Under the pieces are notes generated by a model. The model worked only from the letters and a program-made list of their open reading frames with translations. It did not search any database and was not told the DNA's origin. A program made the position numbers and the translations under genes. Positions 5,064 through 48,954 of a DNA stretch of 59,931 nt are shown piece after piece. This stretch comes from Magnetococcales bacterium (GTDB lineage Bacteria > Pseudomonadota > Magnetococcia > Magnetococcales > Magnetaquicoccaceae), in contig JAANAU010000021.1 in the NCBI GenBank assembly GCA_011089965.1, positions 1-59,931 of the forward strand, written 5' to 3'. How positions within the stretch are numbered: position 1 is the stretch's first letter; every line of letters begins with the position of its first letter.

Positions 5064-5792
5064 ATGGAAGCTAAATTTTCTAAACCAGACCTTACAAGAA
5101 GATTTAATTTTATTTTAGATCAATACTTTGACGGCAAGGCAGCCAATCTTTTTAGGGCGTCCGGAGTGCCGCAAGCGAATCTGAGCGGGTACAAGGAAGG
5201 GAAAGAGCCGAATCTTGATGCGCTGACCAGAATAGCCCTGGCATGCAACGTCACTACAGACTGGCTCCTCACTGGCGAAGGTCCGATGCGCCGGGATGAT
5301 GCATCCCACCCCCCGGTAGACAGATCACTTGTTGCTCTGTCCGATCTGGATGTTGAAAATGAAAGTGCTAAAGCATACGCTTTGATTCCACGATATGATG
5401 TACATGCTTCCGCCGGTTATGGTGCCGTGGTCGGGGTTGAACGGATCATCGACCACATGGCTTTTCCGCTGGAGTGGCTGAAGGGAATCATGAAACTGGA
5501 TATTCAAAGAACGGCGATGATCTACGTCAACGGGGACAGCATGATTCCAACCCTGCATCCTGATGATGTGGTGTTGGTTGATATGCGTGAGCAAGATCGC
5601 GTGTCAGCGAATGCCGTCTATGTCATCCAGGTGGATGGGGATCTGTTTGTGAAACGATTGCAGAAAATGACCAACGGCAACGTTGTCGTGAAAAGCGACA
5701 ATCCGCATTACGATACAGAAACGATTTTGCCGGGAGAGATGGGTCGACTGAATGTTGTGGGAAAGGTCGTTTGGGCGGGGAGAAGGATGTAA
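5064..5792 (+). CDS. CI/LexA-like phage repressor with S24 peptidase domain
   Basis: The product is 242 residues from ATG 5064, with AAGGA 8 nt upstream. The N-terminal about 75 residues carry a helix-turn-helix (LTRRFNFILDQYF, NLFRASGVPQANLSGYKEGK, LDALTRIALACNV), ending in WLLTGEGP as in many bacterial CI repressors. The C-terminal half is a LexA/UmuD-type fold with catalytic Ser in NGDSMIPTL and Lys in FVKRLQK. An Ala-Gly pair in VHASAGYG sits where LexA-like proteins are cut, so RecA-stimulated autocleavage and SOS induction are plausible. It probably represses the divergent leftward operon. Confidence 0.88.
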   Translation: MEAKFSKPDLTRRFNFILDQYFDGKAANLFRASGVPQANLSGYKEGKEPNLDALTRIALACNVTTDWLLTGEGPMRRDDASHPPVDRSLVALSDLDVENESAKAYALIPRYDVHASAGYGAVVGVERIIDHMAFPLEWLKGIMKLDIQRTAMIYVNGDSMIPTLHPDDVVLVDMREQDRVSANAVYVIQVDGDLFVKRLQKMTNGNVVVKSDNPHYDTETILPGEMGRLNVVGKVVWAGRRM

Positions 5793-5846
5793 AAAAGATA
5801 ATAAAATGCTGCAAATTAACCGCGTAATCAAGGCCGGAGAACATCT

Positions 5847-6593
5847 TTGATCGAAGAAAATAAAAACGAGCAATACATTTGTCCGAACTGTAATGCAGGT
5901 ACGACGCAACGATACGAAGTTATTCACCAATCAAAAACTGTGCATACAGGGGTTGGCGTCGGCGGTGGTCATTTGGCTGTAGGCGTTGGTGTAAGTCAAA
6001 CACTGAACGGTCCAATGTTTTCCCCTCCACAAATGCCACCTTCTCCTTTTGCTATAGGCTGTGGTGCAACCATTATTTGTTTTATTACTTTAGCAGGCAC
6101 AATACCATCTGCAGGATTATTGTTTACGATATCTGCTATTTTTTGTGCCCTGGTCGTGGCGGCCGCAAAAGAATAATCAGAGAACGATAAAGAAAAATAC
6201 GAATATGCTATGAATGAATGGCGAAAAAAGATATTTTGTCACAGGTGCGGAGTTACTTTCACTCTGGATAATGCTCCACCACCAATTATTGGAATAAAAC
6301 CGTTTACTCAGAAAGAAAATATTGAAAGCAGTTCAGTAAAATATAAAGTTATTATTGTGTTTGACGCCGGAAAAGATAAAGAAAATGCGCTTCGGGCAGT
6401 CGAAAGAATCAAAGAACAAAAAATTAGACATTTTGCCATGTCGTTGATACAGAAAGATATCAATTTTATTATGAAGAACAATCTTGAATTTGCAGAAGCC
6501 AAAGCCATTATTGAAGAACTGAACCGTGATTTTATCAATTATCCTGAACTTGCTGAGGCTGGTATTTACGGAATCATTGAGCCAATTTGCTGA
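5847..6593 (+). pseudogene. Double zinc-ribbon membrane protein, interrupted by in-frame TAA
   Basis: A TTG start (5847) opens a frame with a zinc-ribbon knuckle (CPNCNAG), a glycine/valine-rich loop (VGVGGGHLAVGVGVSQ) and two hydrophobic segments (about residues 69-107). It stops at TAA 6174-6176. The same frame goes straight on (YEYAMNEWRKKIFCHRCGVTF), giving the second knuckle, FCHRCG, and then about 115 more residues to 6593. Proteins with ribbon, Gly-rich loop, TM and W-x-x-x-x-FxCxRCG in one chain are a known uncharacterised family, so the two halves were one gene. The extra C-terminal domain (KVIIVFDAG...AKAIIEELN) vaguely resembles the L7/L12 C-terminal fold; this is weak. Codon use is AT-rich. 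Confidence 0.65.
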
Positions 6594-7301: not shown

Positions 7302-7490
7302 TCAGATAGCCGATATCGTTTCGATTTCCACTCGGTAGCCTTCGGACCAGAAGGAGTCGGAAACGCCCTCTTTTTTCTCCTCTCCGCCGGAATTCTCCAA
7401 AACCTGCGGACCAAACTTCTCCTGCTCTCTTTCAACATTTAACAGCACTTGCTTAAATTTAGCCAGTTCGACAACAAAAATGGTTGACAT
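7302..7490 (-). CDS. Possible small hypothetical protein (62 aa)
   Basis: An open frame from 7490 (MSTIFVVELAKFKQVLLNVE) to 7302 gives an acidic, possibly helical protein ending in VEIETISAI. No ribosome site is visible and no relatives are recognised. It sits in a region that otherwise looks non-coding, so it may be chance or a fragment. Confidence 0.2.
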   Translation of the reverse strand: MSTIFVVELAKFKQVLLNVEREQEKFGPQVLENSGGEEKKEGVSDSFWSEGYRVEIETISAI

Positions 7491-8022
7491 GTGAGACCGG
7501 TCACAAACCCAAACTTTATTAAAGAATAATTCAAGATATTAAAAATATGAGAGACATTCGCTCCGCGCACGGGTTGGTCTGTGTGCTGCTATGTTGCATG
7601 AGACCGGGACCACCAATAACTCCAACTCCACTTGCCGCCAACCGGAAAAACCCGACACAGCGCAACAGGGTGCGCCGGAAGCAAACGTCCAGAGGATGAC
7701 TCCTTCGGACTCTCGGCGCTCTCCATGTCACGAATGCGGCTCTGCGCCAGTGTTGGCCCTGAGTCAGCCCACGTTCGCGCCAGACCCTTCACTGGTATGG
7801 TTTGCGCGTTGAACCATGACGTGTGGCCAGTGGCCCACTGTGGAGAAAATCCGAAGTGCGTTTTTGAAAATCACGTTCTCGCAGGTGGAGTGAGCAAATT
7901 CTGGCAGTTTTGCTATTGACTTTCCCACCAAAGAGCATCATGTTAAAAATGTTTGGAATTGCAAATTGCTCACAAATGGTTGTAAAAATTTAACTTTTTT
8001 CGGCAAAAACAGGAAAATAAGT
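7491..8022. other. Intergenic stretch without recognisable gene
   Basis: Several short frames exist on both strands (for example 7591-7812), but they have no start signals, no recognisable motifs and mutually overlapping composition. TTGACT at 7916-7921 could be a -35 for the CheW-like gene; its -10 partner is poor. The stretch reads as accessory spacer or decayed sequence. Confidence 0.4.
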
Positions 8023-8514
8023 ATGCTCGTAAGCACATTCACCCTTGGAGATGTTTACCTGGGAATTAATATTCGCATGGTGCGAGAAATTAATCGTTCC
8101 GCAGAATGCACTCCGGTTCCCGGATCCCCTGATTACATCCGTGGGATGTTGAATATCCGAGGCAGGGTCATTACTTTGTTTGATATAAGAACTCGTTTAG
8201 GCTGGTCAAAACAGGATTCTGGTATAAACAGGTCAAAACAATATAACGTCATAATGAAAACGCGTGATGAGATTTCTAAAATTGACAGCAAACTCGCACT
8301 GACTCAATGTCCATGGGAAGACCCGGTAGGTCTGATAGTAGATCAACTTGGAGATGTGCTTGACATCCCGGATGATAACATTTTGCCTCCACCGGCCAAC
8401 CTGACAAGTGTTTCAGTCGATTTTATCCAAGGTGTGGTGACGTTTGAAAAAAACCTTCTTGTTGTTCTTGATATCGCAACAGTTCTGGGATTGAATACTC
8501 CATCTTCGGGTTGA
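8023..8514 (+). CDS. CheW-like chemotaxis coupling protein
   Basis: The product is 163 residues from ATG 8023 (MLVSTFTLGDVYLGINI). The CheW SH3-like fold is visible: VREINRSAECTPVPGSPDYIRGMLNIRGRVI has the conserved G-x-x-N-x-R-G-x-x-x segment, then TLFDIRTRLG, VGLIVDQLGDVLDIP and GVVTFEKNLLVVLDIATVL. CheW links methyl-accepting receptors to CheA. It stands alone, with no cheA or receptor in the window, so it may serve a distant pathway. The last residues (NTPSSG) abut the transposase fragment, so the extreme C-terminus may be altered. Confidence 0.85.
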   Translation: MLVSTFTLGDVYLGINIRMVREINRSAECTPVPGSPDYIRGMLNIRGRVITLFDIRTRLGWSKQDSGINRSKQYNVIMKTRDEISKIDSKLALTQCPWEDPVGLIVDQLGDVLDIPDDNILPPPANLTSVSVDFIQGVVTFEKNLLVVLDIATVLGLNTPSSG

Positions 8515-8945
8515 CCGCGATACGTGCGTCTTCCAGTTTGCGGTCCCTATTCATTTGGATCTCTGTATGCCTACCTGCAAGCCGATCCGCTGGCGTCACA
8601 TATCCGATGGCTGAATGCAGCCGGACGGTATTGTAATGCTCGACATACCGTTTCACCACTCGGCGGGCGTCATCCACGGTCAGAGGTGTTTCCGGGCGGA
8701 TACATTCCGACTTGATCGTCTTGTGCCAACGCTCGATTTTCCCGTTGCTCTGCGGATAGTACGGTGAAGTTCGAACATGGGTCATCCCAGATACCCGAAT
8801 GAACTCTTTGAAATCCCTGGCGATAAATTGCGGGCCATTATCTGAAATAATTCTTGGCTTTTCGTCGGGATACTTCTCATGCGCCCGTTGAATGATCACC
8901 TCGACATCCTGTTCGGTCATGGCCTCGCGAATCTTATAGCGCGTC
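8515..8945 (-). mobile_element. IS3-type transposase fragment (rve domain), truncated at both ends
   Basis: The leftward frame holds a DDE integrase core typical of IS3-family OrfB. It contains IREAMTEQDVEVIIQRA, then the second Asp in ISDNGPQF, GMTHVRTSPYYPQSNGKIER with the catalytic Glu, and VKRYVEHYNTVRLHSAIGYV. The first catalytic Asp and the N-terminal half are missing: upstream of about 8940 the frame loses similarity and meets the transporter's 3' end at 8991. Downstream of KLEDARIAV the frame runs into the antisense of the CheW-like gene. No terminal inverted repeats are visible. It is a dead remnant. Confidence 0.8.
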
Positions 8946-8990
8946 AATTTGATTTCCTGATAGGATAGATGCGCATGAGGCATGTCACGA

Positions 8991-10778
8991 TCAAAGATGA
9001 AAAGGCCAGATGCGTGGCACCATGAACAGAGTCACAATGCCGACCAGAAGTGACAGCAACGCCCCATAGCGGCCATAATCTCCAAAACGATATCCGCCCG
9101 GTCCTTGCACCATCAGGTTGACTTGATAGCCGATGGGGGTCAAGAATGAAGCCGATGCCCCCACCAAGACCACCACCGCGAACGGCAACGCCGATACCTC
9201 CAAATCCCTGGCCGTGGCCATGGCAATGGGAAACATCAGGACCGCCGTGGCGTTATTGGTGACAATCTGGGTCAACAGGGCCGTGACCGCATAGACCATG
9301 GCCAGTGAAATCCAGGGATCCTGCCGCACCACGTGGATCAGCAAAGCGGCCAGATATCGGGCTGCCCCCGTGGTTTCGAGGGCGATACCCAGGCTGAACG
9401 AAGCAGCGATCACCAGAAGTACCGGCCATTCGACCGCCCGTCGCGCCGTCCCACTGGAGACGCAACCGGACAAAAGCATCCCTCCCGCCGACAACAGAGC
9501 GGCCTCCAGGGTGGAGAGCCTGGTCAAGGTGGACATGAGTACGAAACAAAACAGAATCCCCAACGCCAACGGTGCCCGCCGATGTCTTACCGGGTGGTAA
9601 TGGTCGATGTGACGGATAAGCAAAAAATCCCGATTACAGCCGTATTGATCCAAAAAGGCAGGCGTGGTCTCCAACAGCAATTGGTCTCCGGGCCGCAGCA
9701 CCATATCCCCGATTTTTCCGGTCAATTTGCGTCCGTTACGGGCGATGGCCAGAATGGCGGCATGATAGATCGTGCGAAAACGCCCCTCCCGCACGCTGCG
9801 TCCCACCAATGGACAGGAATCGGAGATCACAGCTTCCACCAACACCCGTTGCAAATCCGGGGCATCGAGCTTGAAAATCTGGTCTGTCGCGGGCTTGAGG
9901 CCGGGCATGGCGCGCAGATCCGCCACAGAATCCACTCGACCGGTAAAGAGCAGGCGATCCTCCCCTTGCAGCCGTTCATCTGAGGAGACCGCCGGCAGCA
10001 GTACGTCACCACGTTGGATCTCCACCAGAAAGAGTCCGGGCAGATGGCGCAATCCGGCGTCGCGGATGGTTTTGCCTGCCAGGGGGCCGTGAAGTTCGAC
10101 AATCATTTCCACGGTATATTCCCGCACGTTGGCAAAGGACTCGGCGGCCAGATGGCGTCGGGGCAGAAAACGTGGTCCCATGAACAACACATACCCCAAT
10201 ACCGCCACGGTGAGAGGCAGGCCGACGGCCCCAATCTCCCATAACGAAAAACCCATGCCATACCCCCCGGAGAGCAGCAAGCCATGCACCACCAGATTGG
10301 TGCTCGAACCCACCAGCGTGCACAGTCCCGCAACCGTGGTTAAAAAGGCCAGAGGCATCATCAAGGCCGAAATGGGCAGTCGGTATCGGGCGGCCCAGGT
10401 GGTCAGGGCCGGAATGAACATGGCCACCACCGGCGTATTATTCAAAAACGGGGAGATGACCATGATGGGCAGGGCCAGCCGCAACAAGGCATGACGCAAG
10501 GAGCGGGGTTGCCCCAAAACGATCTCAGAAATCCAGCGTACCGCACCGGTCTCTTCCAATCCGGCCACCACCACATAAAGCACCCCGACAGTGACCATGC
10601 CTTCGTTGGCCAATCCGGCCAGAGCCTGTTTGGGGGTCAGCACACCAGCGATGAGTAAGAGGGTGACCCCGCCCAGCAACACCGCATCCGATGGGTGACG
10701 GTTGCGGGCCAGCAACAGCACGCACAACCCGATTACCCCCAAAGAAAACCATGCCTGCCAGATCATAGGTGTCAACAT
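8991..10778 (-). CDS. DASS/SLC13-type anion transporter with two RCK-C domains
   Basis: The 595-residue inner-membrane protein has hydrophobic helices at residues about 1-190, two soluble TrkA/RCK C-terminal-like domains (about 205-375), and a second membrane half (about 395-595). The paired hairpin motifs of the family are present: SPFLNNTPVVAMF in the first half and VTNNATAVLMFP in the second. Such proteins carry sulfate, dicarboxylates or related anions with Na+; the substrate cannot be read from sequence. The start at 10778 lacks a strong ribosome site. The gene stands alone between the IS fragment and the HU/IHF pseudogene. Confidence 0.85.
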   Translation of the reverse strand: MLTPMIWQAWFSLGVIGLCVLLLARNRHPSDAVLLGGVTLLLIAGVLTPKQALAGLANEGMVTVGVLYVVVAGLEETGAVRWISEIVLGQPRSLRHALLRLALPIMVISPFLNNTPVVAMFIPALTTWAARYRLPISALMMPLAFLTTVAGLCTLVGSSTNLVVHGLLLSGGYGMGFSLWEIGAVGLPLTVAVLGYVLFMGPRFLPRRHLAAESFANVREYTVEMIVELHGPLAGKTIRDAGLRHLPGLFLVEIQRGDVLLPAVSSDERLQGEDRLLFTGRVDSVADLRAMPGLKPATDQIFKLDAPDLQRVLVEAVISDSCPLVGRSVREGRFRTIYHAAILAIARNGRKLTGKIGDMVLRPGDQLLLETTPAFLDQYGCNRDFLLIRHIDHYHPVRHRRAPLALGILFCFVLMSTLTRLSTLEAALLSAGGMLLSGCVSSGTARRAVEWPVLLVIAASFSLGIALETTGAARYLAALLIHVVRQDPWISLAMVYAVTALLTQIVTNNATAVLMFPIAMATARDLEVSALPFAVVVLVGASASFLTPIGYQVNLMVQGPGGYRFGDYGRYGALLSLLVGIVTLFMVPRIWPFHL

Positions 10779-15003: not shown

Positions 15004-15442
15004 ATTGCCTGTCGGCACCAGCGCCGAGTTGATCCATCTGGTCACCGGCCATGACTCGGCCATCCAGTTGCGCATGGGATCAGGAGATGATTTTCCCGAT
15101 GTCCTGGCCACATCCCGGATGATCGGCCTCATGGAGTTGACCGCAGCCCGTCTGATGCGCCCCGTATTGCACCACGGGGAGTTGTCCGTAGGGGTGCGCG
15201 TGGATGTCGTCCATCTGGCCGCCACCCCGCTTTATGAAAAAATTCGCATCCAGGCCACCTTTCTGGGACTCGAAGGCAAACTCTATCGGTTCCAGGTCGA
15301 ACTGTTCGATCAGGGGGGCAAAGTGGGAGAAGGAACCCATCTCCGGGCGGTGGTGCGGCCTGACCGCCTGGTGGAGAGCGCACAAAGACGAATTGCTGCC
15401 GGTCAACCCGACACCACGGAATCTGCACGAGATGGATCCTGA
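14993..15442 (+). CDS. FlK-like hotdog-fold thioesterase
   Basis: The product is 149 residues. The pattern DVLATSRMIGLMELTAARLM, LSVGVRVDVVHLAATP, then FQVELFDQGGKVGEGTHLRA matches the fluoroacetyl-CoA-thioesterase-like hotdog family. Members hydrolyse acyl-CoA or related thioesters; the T-x-x-x-x-LME helix and GEGTH strand are the usual active-site surroundings. AAGGAGG lies 9 nt before ATG 14993, inside the preceding gene, so translation may be coupled. The 3' end overlaps the convergent polyferredoxin gene by 40 nt. The substrate is unknown. Confidence 0.8.
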   Translation: MRHELPVGTSAELIHLVTGHDSAIQLRMGSGDDFPDVLATSRMIGLMELTAARLMRPVLHHGELSVGVRVDVVHLAATPLYEKIRIQATFLGLEGKLYRFQVELFDQGGKVGEGTHLRAVVRPDRLVESAQRRIAAGQPDTTESARDGS

Positions 15443-16971
15443 ATGACCGCCTGCTGATGCAGCAGCATGCGATTGTCGCGGGAACGGGTCTCGCCCACGG
15501 AGGTCACCCGAATGGCGGCCAGATCCGCTACCGGGCATTTGTTCTCACAGATTCCGCAGCCAATACAAAGGTCCGGCTGCACAAACGGACGCTTTAACGC
15601 AACCTGACGACCATCCCGCCCTTTGACCATCACCATCTCATACCAGATGGCCTTGGGCGAAGTGGGACAGGTCTCTTCGCAGACGATGCAGGGCACATCC
15701 ATGGACCAGGGCAAACAGCGTCCCCGATCAAAAAAAGCGGTCCCCAACCGAATCGGCTGGGTGAATGGTGGCGCGCCGACCTTTTCAGCCACTGTGACCG
15801 GACGAATCGCTGCCGTGGGACAGACCTGTCCACACAGCACGCAATGGTGTTCACAATACCCGATCCCATTCATCAGGATCGGGGTCCACAATCCCTCAAA
15901 GCCGGACTCCAGCAAAGCCGGTTGCAAGACATTGGTGGGACAGATGCGCATGCACAACCCACATTTAATGCAGCGGGCCAAAAACTGTGGCTCGGGCAGT
16001 GAACCCGGTGGACGGATCACCTCCGGGGCTGGGGCCGTGCGTACGGACAACGAGCTTTTGGTCACCGGCACAGCCACCACAGCGGCCAGGGCACTCTCCA
16101 CCACCCGCCGCCGGTTGATGTCCAAAGGCCGTCCAATCGAACTGCGCTCTCTGGCCAAGCCATAATGCAATGCCTGAGTGCCACACGCCTCGATACAGTT
16201 CATACACAGATGACACTCGGTGACCCGCACGGCACCATCCGGATCGGCTGCGCCCTGACAGGCTTTCAAACACTGCTTGCACTGGTTGCAGGCATCCACG
16301 TCGCGCCGGATGCGCAATACAGACCATTGGGAACACCAACCCAATAAAGCACCCAACGGACACAAAGCCCGACACCAGAAACGGGTGATGAACCGATTGG
16401 CCAACAGGATCAACAACAAAATCCCGCCAATCAAGACTCCTCCCTGAAAAACCGGTGCATTGGTATAAAACCATCCGCCCGCAACATGATCGACAGCCGG
16501 CAAAAACGATAACGAAAAAGAACGATAGATCAAGGCAATCGGATCCAGGAGGCCGATCTGCAAGGAACCAAACGCCGCAAAGACCAACATCACCACCAAC
16601 AGATAATATTTCAACCGATAGAGCGGTCGATAACGGTTCTCTTCCCAGGCTTCCACGGCCCGCCGCCGATGCCACAGATGACTGACAGCCTGATTCAGTA
16701 TCCCCAACGGACAGATCCACGAACAGAAAAAACGCCCCAAAAACAATGTGGGAATCAAGATCACCAGGGCAAAGGCCAACCCCTGATACAAGGTATGACT
16801 GGTCAACACACCCGCCAGGGCGGTCAGAGGGTCCAGTTGCAACAACAGCTCAACGTCATACCCTTGCAGCCGTCCAAACCCGGCACTCCACAGAAAAAAA
16901 ACAAACAATCCCACAAAAAACACCGCATAGACCCGTCTGACGCCGCGCAAGCCACTCATACCCTGCTCCAT
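15403..16971 (-). CDS. NapH/MauN-like membrane polyferredoxin
   Basis: The product is 522 residues. The N-terminal half has about five membrane helices carrying the two CxxxCP motifs of NapH-like proteins (FCSWICPLG and WCRALCPLG). It is followed by several 4Fe-4S motifs: CNQCKQCLKAC, CHLCMNCIEAC, CIKCGLCMRICP, CVLCGQVCP, CIVCEETCP and CIGCGICENKCP. It probably moves electrons from the membrane quinone or cytoplasm towards exported partners. The ATG (16969-16971) shares a base with the TAA of the DUF362 gene. It is the last gene of a four-gene redox operon. Convergent overlap with the thioesterase gene is 40 nt. Confidence 0.88.
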   Translation of the reverse strand: MEQGMSGLRGVRRVYAVFFVGLFVFFLWSAGFGRLQGYDVELLLQLDPLTALAGVLTSHTLYQGLAFALVILIPTLFLGRFFCSWICPLGILNQAVSHLWHRRRAVEAWEENRYRPLYRLKYYLLVVMLVFAAFGSLQIGLLDPIALIYRSFSLSFLPAVDHVAGGWFYTNAPVFQGGVLIGGILLLILLANRFITRFWCRALCPLGALLGWCSQWSVLRIRRDVDACNQCKQCLKACQGAADPDGAVRVTECHLCMNCIEACGTQALHYGLARERSSIGRPLDINRRRVVESALAAVVAVPVTKSSLSVRTAPAPEVIRPPGSLPEPQFLARCIKCGLCMRICPTNVLQPALLESGFEGLWTPILMNGIGYCEHHCVLCGQVCPTAAIRPVTVAEKVGAPPFTQPIRLGTAFFDRGRCLPWSMDVPCIVCEETCPTSPKAIWYEMVMVKGRDGRQVALKRPFVQPDLCIGCGICENKCPVADLAAIRVTSVGETRSRDNRMLLHQQAVIQDPSRADSVVSG

Positions 16972-17954
16972 TATCCGAGCTGAATATCCACGGGGTGCAG
17001 GTCACGCCAAGCCACCCTGCCCAGACCACGTTGTTCGGCCAGCGCCAGAAAAGGGACAGCCTCCGGAGTCAAATCGAGAAACTGAAGACAATAACTGTCC
17101 AGAGCCACTTCATCACGGGCGGCAATAATGGTCTCGGCACGCACCACATCCGCCGGATTACCGCCAGTTGGACCATTGCGCTTCAACACGCGGGTGGCAT
17201 CCATGATGGTCAGGGTTGGCCGCACTGCCGCTGCCAGATCGACAATCGAGGCATGAATCGCCTGATGCAGACGATTGCGCTGACCGCCAATCACCCCATA
17301 CCAGTTCTTCATGGCCAGGGTGCAGCCTGAGAGCGAGTGATGTTTGACAATGGGCAGATTGATCACCTTGTCCACCTCGTGGAAGAAACGGGCCACGGGC
17401 CAAACCTGCAACACCTTGCCCCCCATATCCGTGGCGATGAAATCCTCCTGACCCGGCAGACGCACCTCCCCTCCGGCAGACACAGCAGCCTGCTCGATCC
17501 CGGAGCGCGCAAAACAGCGACGTGGATCATTCAACGAGACATCCGTCACCCACACCGATTTGGCCCCTGCGACGCGACAGAGCCGCACCATCGCCTCCAC
17601 CAACTCCGGACCGGTATTGGCCGCCTGCTCGGGCTGACGATCCCAGCCGACATTCGGTTTCAACAACACCCGGTCTCCACGGCGAATGAAGCGGCCCATG
17701 CCCCCGAGTTTATCCACTGCTGCCTGCACCATCGCATCCACGCGACGGCCACGCACCACGACCAGATCCGGATGCAACGGATCATCGGCCACACGGAAAT
17801 CCCGCAACCGTTGCGGCACCACCACCGACTGACGGATCGGCTCGTCACTGTAGAGCAGATACCCGCCAATCCCCAGACCGGCTGCCACCCCGGAGAGTCC
17901 AGCCACCCGGCTCAGGAACTCCCGCCGTCCCAGGAGCGGTTCGGTCTGATCCAT
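16971..17954 (-). CDS. Tat-exported DUF362 protein
   Basis: The product is 327 residues from ATG 17954; an alternative ATG at 17981 has AGGAG 10 nt upstream. The Tat-like leader is GRREFLSRVAGLSGVAAGLG. The DUF362 core shows LLKPNVGWDRQPEQAANTGP, KSVWVTDVSLN and VINLPIVKHHSLSGCTLAMK, with NWYGVIG. DUF362 proteins are often tied to Fe-S proteins, but the reaction is unknown. No cluster motif of its own is present. Its 5' part overlaps the DUF6599-like gene by about 110 nt, unusually long, and its stop touches the polyferredoxin start. Confidence 0.85.
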   Translation of the reverse strand: MDQTEPLLGRREFLSRVAGLSGVAAGLGIGGYLLYSDEPIRQSVVVPQRLRDFRVADDPLHPDLVVVRGRRVDAMVQAAVDKLGGMGRFIRRGDRVLLKPNVGWDRQPEQAANTGPELVEAMVRLCRVAGAKSVWVTDVSLNDPRRCFARSGIEQAAVSAGGEVRLPGQEDFIATDMGGKVLQVWPVARFFHEVDKVINLPIVKHHSLSGCTLAMKNWYGVIGGQRNRLHQAIHASIVDLAAAVRPTLTIMDATRVLKRNGPTGGNPADVVRAETIIAARDEVALDSYCLQFLDLTPEAVPFLALAEQRGLGRVAWRDLHPVDIQLG

Positions 17955-18927
17955 GCGCTCCGTTGTCCTTTTTCTGATCATGTGCGACAAACTCCTGCAA
18001 CGGACCCCACGCCACATCCAACGGCAACCCAAAAACCCCCAACAAACGCTCCCCCACGCGCAGAAAAAACCACTCCCCCTCGTACGGGTCGCGCACCAGA
18101 AATATCGCCAAATCCGCCCGTTCCACCCGTTCCACCGGGATCTCCTCTTTCCGGAGGAACTCCAGCAAACGCCCTTCCAACTCCTGACTCTGCGTTGCAG
18201 ATCCCATCACCTGGAAAACCGGAACGATCTGCTCTCCGATCCGAAAGGAACGCTCTACCACCTGATTCAAAAACGCCACGCCGCGATATTTCTCCTTGAT
18301 GAATTTCGTGGCGACCACCGGTCCGAACGCCGGAAAGGCAAACACCTCAACAGACCCCTTGTTCCCCTGACCCATGGTCTGGGCCAATTCTTTTCCCATG
18401 GCCAACAGTGGAACATCCGGGACAAACCCGGTCAATTTGACATAATACGGTCCCACGATAAATCGCAGACCACCGGGTTCGGCCAACCCCATATCCCCAA
18501 TGGCCACCTCCTGCCCGCCATCCCCGCTTTCACCAGTCAGAACCCCAAAGGCAAACAGCGGCCTGGTCATATCAAAAACATCCACCACCACCCGTGGACG
18601 GGATGCCTCCGCAGCCAGACCGTATTCACCGGCAAGCAATTCGCCAAAGCCAGCCGACAGATAATATTCGGCATGACCATTGACATAATCGTGCAAATTC
18701 TCTTTTGTGAACCGTTTCAGCTCCCCCAACCGCACCAACCCGGCCATCTGTTCCGGAAAAAACCGCATGACCGGTGAGAGCCGCGCGGCAGCGTTCTTGA
18801 AATCGAGCAGGCCCGGATCATAACGCTGGCCATCGACATGAATGGCCAGCGCCAACAGCGGCAGCAAAGCCAGCAACCCGCTGCGCACCCAGCGCGCACC
18901 AGAACGACTGACCGGTTTGGTCTCCAT
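17845..18927 (-). CDS. DUF6599-like exported protein
   Basis: ATG 18927 follows the aldo/keto reductase stop by one base. The 360 residues open with a signal sequence or anchor (RSGLLALLPLLALAIHVDG), then FTKENLHDYVNGHAEYYLSA and VVVDVFDMTRPLFAFGVLTG, as in DUF6599 proteins. Further conserved-looking parts are GPYYVKLTGFVPD and YRGVAFLNQVVERSF. The last about 45 residues (after VAHDQKKDNGAHG) lie in a different frame over the DUF362 leader and look non-conserved, so the ancestral stop may have been earlier. It is predicted periplasmic; its role is unknown, presumably in the same redox pathway. Confidence 0.78.
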   Translation of the reverse strand: METKPVSRSGARWVRSGLLALLPLLALAIHVDGQRYDPGLLDFKNAAARLSPVMRFFPEQMAGLVRLGELKRFTKENLHDYVNGHAEYYLSAGFGELLAGEYGLAAEASRPRVVVDVFDMTRPLFAFGVLTGESGDGGQEVAIGDMGLAEPGGLRFIVGPYYVKLTGFVPDVPLLAMGKELAQTMGQGNKGSVEVFAFPAFGPVVATKFIKEKYRGVAFLNQVVERSFRIGEQIVPVFQVMGSATQSQELEGRLLEFLRKEEIPVERVERADLAIFLVRDPYEGEWFFLRVGERLLGVFGLPLDVAWGPLQEFVAHDQKKDNGAHGSDRTAPGTAGVPEPGGWTLRGGSRSGDWRVSALQ

Positions 18928-18928
18928 G

Positions 18929-20155
18929 TCAGGAAACCGACTCCAGAGAAAGGGTGCGATGGGCTGCCTGCAATTTGACACGGACCGCCAAACCATACGG
19001 ACAGGCACGATCACAGGCCGCATCGGAACAATCTGCGCACATGGCGGCATTGGGTTGCATGGAGGCATACGCCTGCATGGCCCGTTTCTCATCCTTGTAA
19101 TCCTCGAAATACATCTGATGACGCAGAATCGAGGCAATATCGATCCCTTGCCCACAAGCCTCCAGACACGCTCCACACCCGGTCCGGCAATACTCGGCAC
19201 CATGCATGGCCGCATACTGATCCAGCGCCCGCTGATCCAAGGCCGTCAAAGGCTGACCTGAGGCCGGCAGATAGAGATCCAGATCCTGGGCAGCCTGGAT
19301 GGTGATCACCAGACCGCTGATTTCGGTATGGGACAAAGCCCATTTAAAGGCAGCCTGTTCAAACTGGCCTGGATCGAACTTCATATCCCCCTCTTTGGCC
19401 CCGGCCAACACCTTCATGGCCACAACCCCCACTCCACGCGCCTTGGCCTCCTGGAGCACCTCCGGGACTTTGGGAAATTTCATGAAATTGAAGGCAGGCA
19501 TGATGTAATCAAAATGACCGGAGCGCACGGCCTCCAGCATCAACGGTTCCATGTGGTTGGGACCATGGGAAGAAGCGGCCAGAAAACGCACTTTGCCTTC
19601 TTTTTTCAAGCGCGCGGTGGCTGCCAGCATTTCCGGATCAAGCAACCGCTTTTTTTCCAGTTCCAGGTCGGTGAGTTCCCCCAGGGCATGGACAAAAACC
19701 GCATCCAGATAATCGGTCCCCAACCGTTTGAGGCTGTTGTCCACTGCGGCCACATAATCGGCCTCGGTGGATCCCAGTTGCAGATGGCTTTTGCCGGCCT
19801 GATAGCTCTTGGGCTGGCAATATTTTGAGGCGATATGGAGTTTGTCGCGCCCTTTGAACTTGCGCAATGCCTCGCCGATATGGTCCTCGCTCGGCCCATA
19901 ATCGGGAGCAGTATCGATATAGTTCATCCCCCGGTCCAATGCGCGCAACACCAGGGAGGCCGAAGTGAGACGACCGGCTCCAAAGGAAATATCGCTCATC
20001 TGGATTCCGGTCTTGCCCAGGGGTCGATAGGCACGCACCCGGGCCTTGTCCGCACCGCCCCCCCCTTCCTGACCTGCCTGCGCTGCGCCACCAACCACCG
20101 GCACGGCTCCCACTGCCACCAGTGCAGCCGACTGAATGAAACTCCTGCGTCTCAT
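18929..20155 (-). CDS. Tat-exported aldo/keto reductase with ferredoxin tail
   Basis: The product is 408 residues from ATG 20155, with GGGAGG 7 nt upstream. The twin-arginine leader MRRRSFIQSAALVAVGAVPV ends near AAQA. The aldo/keto reductase barrel has LGKTGIQMSDISFG, DRGMNYIDTAPDYG with the catalytic Asp/Tyr, Lys in IASKYCQ and His in VFVHALG. The C-terminus binds Fe-S clusters: CRTGCGACLEACGQGI and CADCSDAACDRACPYG. Export of a nicotinamide-type enzyme fold is unusual; the periplasm lacks NAD(P)H, so electrons may come via the clusters. It is the first gene of the operon, divergent from the response-regulator gene. Confidence 0.88.
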   Translation of the reverse strand: MRRRSFIQSAALVAVGAVPVVGGAAQAGQEGGGGADKARVRAYRPLGKTGIQMSDISFGAGRLTSASLVLRALDRGMNYIDTAPDYGPSEDHIGEALRKFKGRDKLHIASKYCQPKSYQAGKSHLQLGSTEADYVAAVDNSLKRLGTDYLDAVFVHALGELTDLELEKKRLLDPEMLAATARLKKEGKVRFLAASSHGPNHMEPLMLEAVRSGHFDYIMPAFNFMKFPKVPEVLQEAKARGVGVVAMKVLAGAKEGDMKFDPGQFEQAAFKWALSHTEISGLVITIQAAQDLDLYLPASGQPLTALDQRALDQYAAMHGAEYCRTGCGACLEACGQGIDIASILRHQMYFEDYKDEKRAMQAYASMQPNAAMCADCSDAACDRACPYGLAVRVKLQAAHRTLSLESVS

Positions 20156-24991: not shown

Positions 24992-26062
24992 ATGACCCCA
25001 GCCCGTTATTGGCGTCTTCTTGATTCAGGAAAACTGGTCTGCGAACTCTGTCCGCGCCGCTGCGAACTGAACGATGGACAGAGGGGATTCTGTTTTGTAC
25101 GGGCACGACAGGGGGAACAACTGGTGTTGACCACGTATGGACGTTCCAGCGGATTCTGCGTGGATCCTATCGAGAAAAAACCCCTGAATCACTACCATCC
25201 CGGCACTTCGGTTCTGTCATTTGGCACGGCAGGGTGCAATCTGGCCTGCAAATTCTGCCAGAATTGGGATATCAGCAAATCCCGTCATATGGAACGGATC
25301 GCCGATTACGCCTCGCCCGAGGCCATTGCCTTGGCTGCCAGGCAACACGGTTGCCACAGCGTGGCCTACACCTACAATGATCCGGTGATCTTTGCCGAGT
25401 ATGCCGTGGATACGGCCAGCGCCTGCCGGGAGTTGGGAGTGGAATCCGTGGCCGTGACTGCCGGATACATGGAGCTGGAGCCTGCGGCCTGGTTCTTTTC
25501 CCACATGGACGCAGCCAATGTGGATCTGAAATCCTTTTCCGAGACCTTCTACCGCAAACTGACCGGCGGCCATCTGCAACCGGTTCTGGAACTGTTGCAA
25601 TATCTGGCGTGTGAAACCCAGGTGTGGGTGGAGTTGACCACGTTATTGATTCCGGATTGCAATGATTCGGAGGCCGAATTGCAGGCTTTGACCCAGTGGG
25701 TCGTCACCGAAATGGGATCAGATGTCCCGATCCACTTTACGGCGTTTCATCCAGACTGGCAGATGCGCGATCTGCCGCGCACCCCGACCGAGACCTTGTT
25801 GCGTGCCCGGGCGATAGCCCTGGCCAATGGGATGAAATTCGCCTATGTAGGCAATGTCCAGGATGGACACGGTGGCAGCACCTGGTGTCCGGGATGCGGT
25901 CAACTGCTGATCGAGCGGTACGGTTACACCCTGAGACAGTGGGCGTTGACCCCGGATGGCCGTTGCCGTGTCTGTGCCATGCCGATTCCTGGCCGGTTTG
26001 CGGGGGCACCCGGCGGATGGGGCGCACGCCGATTACCGGTTCAAATCGCTCCACACCTCTGA
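24992..26062 (+). CDS. amrS: AmmeMemoRadiSam-system radical SAM enzyme
   Basis: The product is 356 residues. An N-terminal four-Cys knuckle (LVCELCPRRCELNDGQRGFC) and the radical SAM motif CNLACKFCQNWDIS define the AmrS family. Further marks are VAYTYNDPVIFAEY, ANVDLKSFSETFY and HFTAFHPDW. A C-terminal Zn-like knuckle CPGCG...CRVCAMP follows. Partners AMMECR1 (AmrA) and Memo (AmrB) are not in the window. The reaction is unresolved in the literature as I know it. ATG 24992 follows GGAGAACAACC. Confidence 0.9.
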   Translation: MTPARYWRLLDSGKLVCELCPRRCELNDGQRGFCFVRARQGEQLVLTTYGRSSGFCVDPIEKKPLNHYHPGTSVLSFGTAGCNLACKFCQNWDISKSRHMERIADYASPEAIALAARQHGCHSVAYTYNDPVIFAEYAVDTASACRELGVESVAVTAGYMELEPAAWFFSHMDAANVDLKSFSETFYRKLTGGHLQPVLELLQYLACETQVWVELTTLLIPDCNDSEAELQALTQWVVTEMGSDVPIHFTAFHPDWQMRDLPRTPTETLLRARAIALANGMKFAYVGNVQDGHGGSTWCPGCGQLLIERYGYTLRQWALTPDGRCRVCAMPIPGRFAGAPGGWGARRLPVQIAPHL

Positions 26063-48761: not shown

Positions 48762-48954
48762 CATGCCATAGCCCCCGCCTGTGCCGTGGGATCGCACTCT
48801 CTGAACCCGTATGTTAAGGTGGATCCATGAATAACTGTTTTTGCGAACCCCGCATGGAGGTGGCAGCGGCAGTCAGGGCACGGCTCCCAGGTTCATAAGT
48901 TATCGGCTCAGGAGGTTGGTCTCCTCACGAACACCGCAGGGGTGGTTGGGCATG
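48762..48954 (-). ncRNA. ssrS: 6S RNA
   Basis: The minus strand contains CTCCTGAGCCGATAACTTAT, matching the CCUGAGCCGAUA signature of the E. coli 6S 5' side, and on the 3' side CACCTTAACATACGGGTTCA. The ends can pair: CATGCC (48954-48949) with GGCATG (48767-48762), and inside CCCC with GGGG, giving about 193 nt. The position between zapA and fau is the conserved proteobacterial location. It binds sigma-70 RNA polymerase as an open-promoter mimic. Exact ends are estimated. Confidence 0.85.

Follow-up and report, generated by a model that had tools for sequence, protein, structure and literature searches.

A candidate exported nickel-pincer nucleotide protein of the DUF362 family, encoded with a NapH-NapG fusion polyferredoxin in Magnetococcales and other bacteria

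The window analysed here is a 59,931-nucleotide stretch of DNA from a Magnetococcales bacterium (contig JAANAU010000021.1). Its minus strand carries a four-gene operon at positions 15403-20155, whose predicted products are an aldo/keto reductase (AKR), a DUF6599 protein, a DUF362 protein and a membrane polyferredoxin (Table 1). The open reading frame list and matches to Pfam and NCBIfam models confirm the four genes, and the families are those named in an earlier reading that was made from the sequence alone, without database searches. That reading placed the genes 1 nucleotide apart or overlapping, which holds for the gap between the AKR and DUF6599 genes (1 nucleotide) and for the overlap between the DUF362 and polyferredoxin genes (1 nucleotide, in TAATG), but the overlap between the DUF6599 and DUF362 genes is in fact 137 nucleotides. 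It is this long because the DUF6599 frame has no stop codon beyond its conserved domain, and the tail past that domain is of low confidence in the structure model.

Table 1. The four genes of the operon, in order of transcription (window positions)
Product	Positions	Strand	Best family match
Tat-type (twin-arginine translocation) AKR, 408 amino acids, C-terminal 8-Cys ferredoxin-like tail, predicted export	18929..20155	-	PF00248, E 7.4e-27
DUF6599 protein, 360 amino acids, N-terminal membrane anchor and predicted extracytoplasmic domain	17845..18927	-	PF20244, E 1.5e-19
Tat-type DUF362 protein, 336 amino acids, predicted LarA fold, predicted export	16971..17981	-	PF04015, E 4e-53
NapH-NapG fusion polyferredoxin, 522 amino acids	15403..16971	-	TIGR02163, E 4e-25; PRK09476 (NapG), E 8e-27

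The polyferredoxin had been described as a NapH-like membrane protein and is more exactly a fusion of NapH and NapG (NapHG). The NapH part has two CxxCxxCxxxC motifs, and hydropathy predicts four transmembrane segments in the protein. It is followed by NRRRVVESALAAVVAVP, which contains an internal RRR and a hydrophobic stretch, and then by a NapG-like part with about four further iron-sulfur (Fe-S) cluster motifs. The arginines R288/R289 and the Cys motifs are invariant among 13 orthologues. Many Fer4 matches occur in addition to the NapH- and NapG-type matches, both of which miss their curated cut-offs (88.7 bits versus 213 for TIGR02163, and 94 versus 269 for PRK09476). The internal signal suggests that the C-terminal half might cross the membrane by the Tat pathway after the NapH half has been inserted. 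NapGH and MauMN quinol dehydrogenase modules likewise combine a NapH-type membrane ferredoxin with a Tat-type ferredoxin of the NapG type; unlike them, the protein described here joins the two in one chain around an internal RR signal, falls short of the curated NapH and NapG scores, and is encoded in an operon that lacks a nitrate reductase partner.

The AKR carries a twin-arginine motif (MRRRSFIQ). Its RRxF leader motif, its catalytic tetrad (D81/Y86/K111/H156) and eight cysteines of the tail (323, 327, 330, 334, 373, 376, 381 and 385) are invariant among 14 orthologues. AKRs with ferredoxin tails (PF00248 plus a Fer4-like domain) share its TIM-barrel family, catalytic tetrad and Cys-rich tail, although the tail of the window protein gives only a sub-threshold Fer4 match. 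It differs from them in its Tat-type leader and in its match to PF00248 (94.6 bits, cut-off 24), which covers only positions 21-194 of 291 and ends before the C-terminal third of the model. That third usually holds part of the NAD(P) contact. Two AKR paralogues at a Gemmatimonadota locus (L112) align nearly to the end of the same model.

The DUF6599 protein has an N-terminal hydrophobic helix without an RR motif. Its structure model (mean predicted local distance difference test score, pLDDT, 86.6) matched nothing in the PDB at E<0.001, a sequence search against the PDB gave no convincing relative, and we found no mention of the family in the literature searched. DUF6599 is present in 43 of 48 Magnetococcales genomes, whereas 350 sampled genomes from the rest of the phylum all lack it.

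Of 20 Magnetococcales loci read, 18 have the complete set of four genes in synteny; at each of the other two, one gene (the AKR at L036, the polyferredoxin at L039) was unmatched within the fetched stretch and the remaining three were present. When species genomes were scanned with an alignment of the DUF362 proteins, 80 loci were recovered, under the labels Magnetococcales, Nitrospirota, Gammaproteobacteria, Acidobacteria, Zixibacteria, Nitrospinota, Ignavibacterium/Bacteroidetes, Gemmatimonadota, Myxococcales and other Deltaproteobacteria, so that the pair of DUF362 and polyferredoxin spans about ten phyla. DUF362 lies beside the NapHG fusion in 81 of 84 clustered loci, often with DUF6599 adjoining. 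The sequence-only reading would have been undermined if the four families never met outside this lineage, but they occur together far from it, in Nitrospirota, in one gammaproteobacterial metagenome-assembled genome (MAG), and in some Acidobacteriota and Gemmatimonadota. Its proposal of an exported redox operon is also supported, with predicted Tat-type leaders on both the AKR and the DUF362 protein. Beyond Magnetococcales, most loci lack the AKR, which occurs in about half of those in Nitrospirota, one gammaproteobacterial locus, some acidobacterial loci and both Gemmatimonadota loci. The conserved core is thus DUF362 with the NapHG fusion, and the AKR does not belong to it. One of the Gemmatimonadota loci, from a MAG (L112:1-9164), has three AKR frames, two DUF362 genes and two DUF6599 genes around a single NapHG fusion. 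An operon that most resembles those of Magnetococcales (DUF362 protein 72% identical) also occurs on a contig (L099, LNQR01000111.1) filed under the Nitrospirota species Candidatus Magnetominusculus xianensis. This contig is probably contamination from Magnetococcales or a very recent transfer, and was set aside as probable contamination.

The DUF362 protein matches PF04015 with 180.9 bits (cut-off 24) and carries a twin-arginine motif in its leader (GRREFLSRV). Among 62 homologues, R19, R20, K108, N110, H215, K225 and N226 are invariant and H239 is conserved in 60. Two acidobacterial loci encode a second DUF362 protein, about 25% identical, beside a NapHG fusion (L132:3614-4666 and L142:3553-4677), and these appear to be the sequences in which Pro replaces H239. 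An AlphaFold2 model built from the 62 homologues has a mean pLDDT of 93.8. When this model was compared with the PDB by Foldseek, 17 structures matched at E<0.001, and all are of the LarA type, namely lactate racemase, malate racemase and other enzymes that use the nickel-pincer nucleotide (NPN); the E-values range from 4.3e-6 to 8e-5 over roughly 240-300 columns. Sequence searches of the PDB with DUF362 gave no convincing relative. Pfam clan CL0471 contains both DUF362 and DUF2088/LarA (PMC11770544).

Profile-profile comparison places the conserved residues in relation to LarA. Only local alignments were used, as the residue map from a full-length global hhalign alignment was unusable. When the exported DUF362 set is aligned with LarA, PIVKHHSLSGCTLAMK pairs with GFIEPHLFAGYSGGRK (E 0.0034), which puts H215 at the second catalytic His and K225 at the lysine that holds NPN, as a correspondence of position only. 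A wider set that includes leaderless DUF362 members aligns over 155 columns with E 1.8e-4, compared with best values of 0.066 for column-shuffled LarA (30 trials) and 0.049 for other families. H215 and K225 are 10 residues apart, as are His173 and Lys183 in LarA_Ip. In LarA, a nickel-ligand His follows the lysine by 16 residues (Lys183 and His199 in LarA_Ip; PMC12611868), and H239 is probably its counterpart. DUF362 proteins that lack a leader or are cytosolic carry the pattern KTH-x9-KN...WH, in which WH follows the lysine by about 15 residues, so that the LarA cofactor site is almost matched in its spacing.

Members with this pattern and no evident leader are encoded at several Nitrospirota loci (L200:2305-3333 and L203-L218). 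Some DUF362 proteins match the LarA N-terminal family (Lar_N, PF09861) in the KTH/lysine stretch, and one leaderless relative lies at the cut-off (22.9-23.6 bits versus 23.3). The Nitrospirota protein L200, which has no twin-arginine leader, unlike the window protein, matches DUF362, Lar_N and the Npun_F2552 family (NF052623, named after Nostoc punctiforme; 274 bits). The Npun_F2552 family is in the same DUF362 superfamily as the window protein, which nevertheless scores only 90 bits against its cut-off of 500. The window protein shares with the LarA superfamily (DUF2088, PF09861) a predicted fold, a Pfam clan, the cofactor lysine and second catalytic His the same distance apart, a His close to where the nickel ligand lies and, as described below, a genomic link to larB, larC and larE. 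It differs in belonging to another Pfam family, in being shorter, and in having a Tat-type leader and a membrane Fe-S partner. Judged from its sequence, it is outside the LarA family as Pfam defines it but probably works like LarA.

Genes for NPN synthesis are associated with the operon in several lineages. The genome containing the window encodes LarB, LarC and LarE, all above curated NCBIfam cut-offs, and exactly one DUF362 protein. LarC is present in 41 of 48 Magnetococcales genomes and LarE is above cut-off in 40, compared with none of 13 other genomes of the phylum, and LarA is absent from all 61. In four Magnetococcales genomes, larC-larB-larE directly follow the polyferredoxin gene (L041, L045, L046 and L165), and two others have larE after it and larB and larC adjoining (L166 and L167). 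A gammaproteobacterial MAG (L088) has larC after the operon and larE/larB a few kilobases further on, and larE-larC-larB precede the polyferredoxin gene in two acidobacterial MAGs (L100 and L110). LarC is encoded in 44 of the 50 genomes that hold this DUF362, and LarA is missing from at least 20 of the 44. LarC and DUF362 occur together in 176 of 296 Nitrospirota genomes, LarC alone in 70, DUF362 alone in 5 and neither in 45, and only 23 of these genomes have LarA. The sequence-only reading could not have seen this principal clue, the combination of a modelled LarA fold with larB, larC and larE neighbours.

We therefore favour, with moderate confidence, the view that the DUF362 protein is a Tat-exported NPN enzyme that is partnered by the exported AKR and connected to the quinone pool by electron exchange via the NapHG fusion. 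LarB, LarE and LarC would make NPN in the cytoplasm, and it would be loaded covalently on K225 of the folded DUF362 protein, with H239 as the probable nickel ligand. Because NPN is made in the cytoplasm, a periplasmic enzyme that uses it must fold and be loaded before export, as the Tat pathway allows; the DUF362 protein and the AKR carry RR motifs, whereas the DUF6599 protein, apparently without a cofactor, has just an anchor. After export of the holo-protein, NPN might take a hydride from, or give one to, a substrate resembling a hydroxy acid or an alcohol, and electrons could pass between the NPN site and quinones by way of the NapHG fusion. The AKR would probably handle a paired carbonyl/alcohol step, and the DUF6599 protein may be an anchored partner in assembly or substrate binding.

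Several observations weigh against this proposal. The superposition on LarA-type structures is loose (TM-scores 0.37-0.48, large root-mean-square deviation, 11-14% identity), and the window protein gives no match to Lar_N at E<=1. The first catalytic His of LarA has no evident counterpart, as the region where it is expected holds S149 and N151 (Ser/Asn) and is unreliably aligned, and K225 is 14 residues from H239 rather than the 16 seen in LarA. Certain LarA homologues, too, have only one of the two catalytic His residues (PMC12611868). In the genome containing the window, larBC and larE are on a different contig from the operon. The odds ratio for LarC and DUF362 in Nitrospirota is 22.6, a statistic that ignores phylogeny and genome completeness. 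Moreover, the control genomes of C. glutamicum and M. jannaschii have LarC and neither LarA nor DUF362; together with the 70 Nitrospirota genomes that have LarC without DUF362, they imply that other NPN users must exist and that DUF362 is not the whole answer. A cyanobacterial NPN protein other than LarA is expected to have a fold distinct from that of LarA (PMC11796402). What the analysis establishes is gene content, synteny, a predicted fold, conserved residues, linkage and co-occurrence with larBCE, and the lack of LarA; NPN binding, export, the substrate, the direction of electron flow and the roles of the AKR and DUF6599 proteins are inferred.

An alternative is a DUF362 protein that retains the LarA scaffold with a different nucleotide-like cofactor, or none, and assists the NapHG fusion in binding or electron transfer, with larB, larC and larE supplying another NPN user. 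The low identity to LarA, the lack of an evident counterpart of the first catalytic His, and the genomes with LarC but neither DUF362 nor LarA are all consistent with this idea. We nonetheless consider it unlikely, given that the lysine and its two flanking His residues are kept while most other positions have changed, that larBCE adjoin the operon in Magnetococcales, Gammaproteobacteria and Acidobacteriota, and that the genome containing the window has a single DUF362 protein and no LarA.

Characterised LarA homologues catalyse isomerisations that are neutral overall (PMC7583248, PMC11770544), and the DUF362 protein might likewise racemise or epimerise its substrate after export, with no net redox chemistry, in which case the NapHG fusion would only set the redox state of the cofactor or of the AKR Fe-S clusters. 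We regard this possibility as quite doubtful. A quinone-linked redox step is more likely than racemisation as the net reaction because the first catalytic His has no evident counterpart, H215 is kept, and DUF362 is nearly always encoded beside its electron-transfer partner, the NapH-NapG fusion, in which about six Fe-S motifs occur.

The sequence-only reading had put the exported AKR at the centre, fed with electrons across the membrane by the polyferredoxin, with DUF362 and DUF6599 as accessories; its invariant tetrad and tail cysteines, and the unmatched C-terminal third of the Pfam model, to whose end the L112 paralogues nearly extend, would suit such a role, but this is improbable, as most loci pair DUF362 with the NapHG fusion and have no AKR nearby, and larBCE linkage points to DUF362 rather than to the AKR. 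The accompanying argument, in which export of the AKR rules out its use of NAD(P)H, was too strong. Proteins cross by the Tat pathway in the folded state, and glucose-fructose oxidoreductase takes its tightly bound NADP with it on export.

In about 15% of surveyed genomes, larB, larC and larE occur and larA does not, and which protein uses NPN there has yet to be established (PMC11796402). We tentatively suggest that DUF362 proteins are the NPN users in many such genomes, and that NPN acts in the exported branch linked to NapHG as a periplasmic coenzyme of net redox chemistry, from which electrons derived from hydride pass to the quinone pool. Our literature search, with subscription papers and preprints outside its scope, found none that names DUF362 as this NPN protein and, apart from the placing of DUF362 and LarA in one clan, none that proposes which cofactor it binds; COG2006 was uninformative. 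The operon and its larBCE-linked relatives provide a concrete candidate family of NPN users with specific residues to mutate, and they make the puzzle of larBCE without larA testable. If the proposal is correct, NPN would be more than the hidden-redox cofactor of racemases: folded proteins would also carry it across the membrane, where it would be coupled to electron transport, and a cofactor could be assigned to a widespread domain of unknown function.

Two other neighbours of the DUF362-NapHG pair were considered and rejected as parts of the core. In some Zixibacteria and Acidobacteria (L101 and L127) the pair is followed by a membrane protein, whose distribution is too restricted; the L101 protein has no Pfam or NCBIfam match. 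AmmeMemoRadiSam genes, as a possible functional partner, lie near the pair in only 6 of 84 clustered loci. In the window, an AmmeMemoRadiSam radical SAM enzyme is encoded about 5 kilobases from the operon (24992-26062, plus strand; TIGR04337, 596 bits). The Zixibacteria MAG locus L101 encodes another near its DUF362-NapHG pair (5363-6556, minus strand), with the twin-arginine-like leader MDRRMFIR, as well as a signal-bearing Memo-AMMECR1 fusion (7401-9011, plus strand); together they appear to form an exported AmmeMemoRadiSam system. Elsewhere in the window, a 6S RNA is present at 48768-48945 on the minus strand (RF00013, 75 bits).

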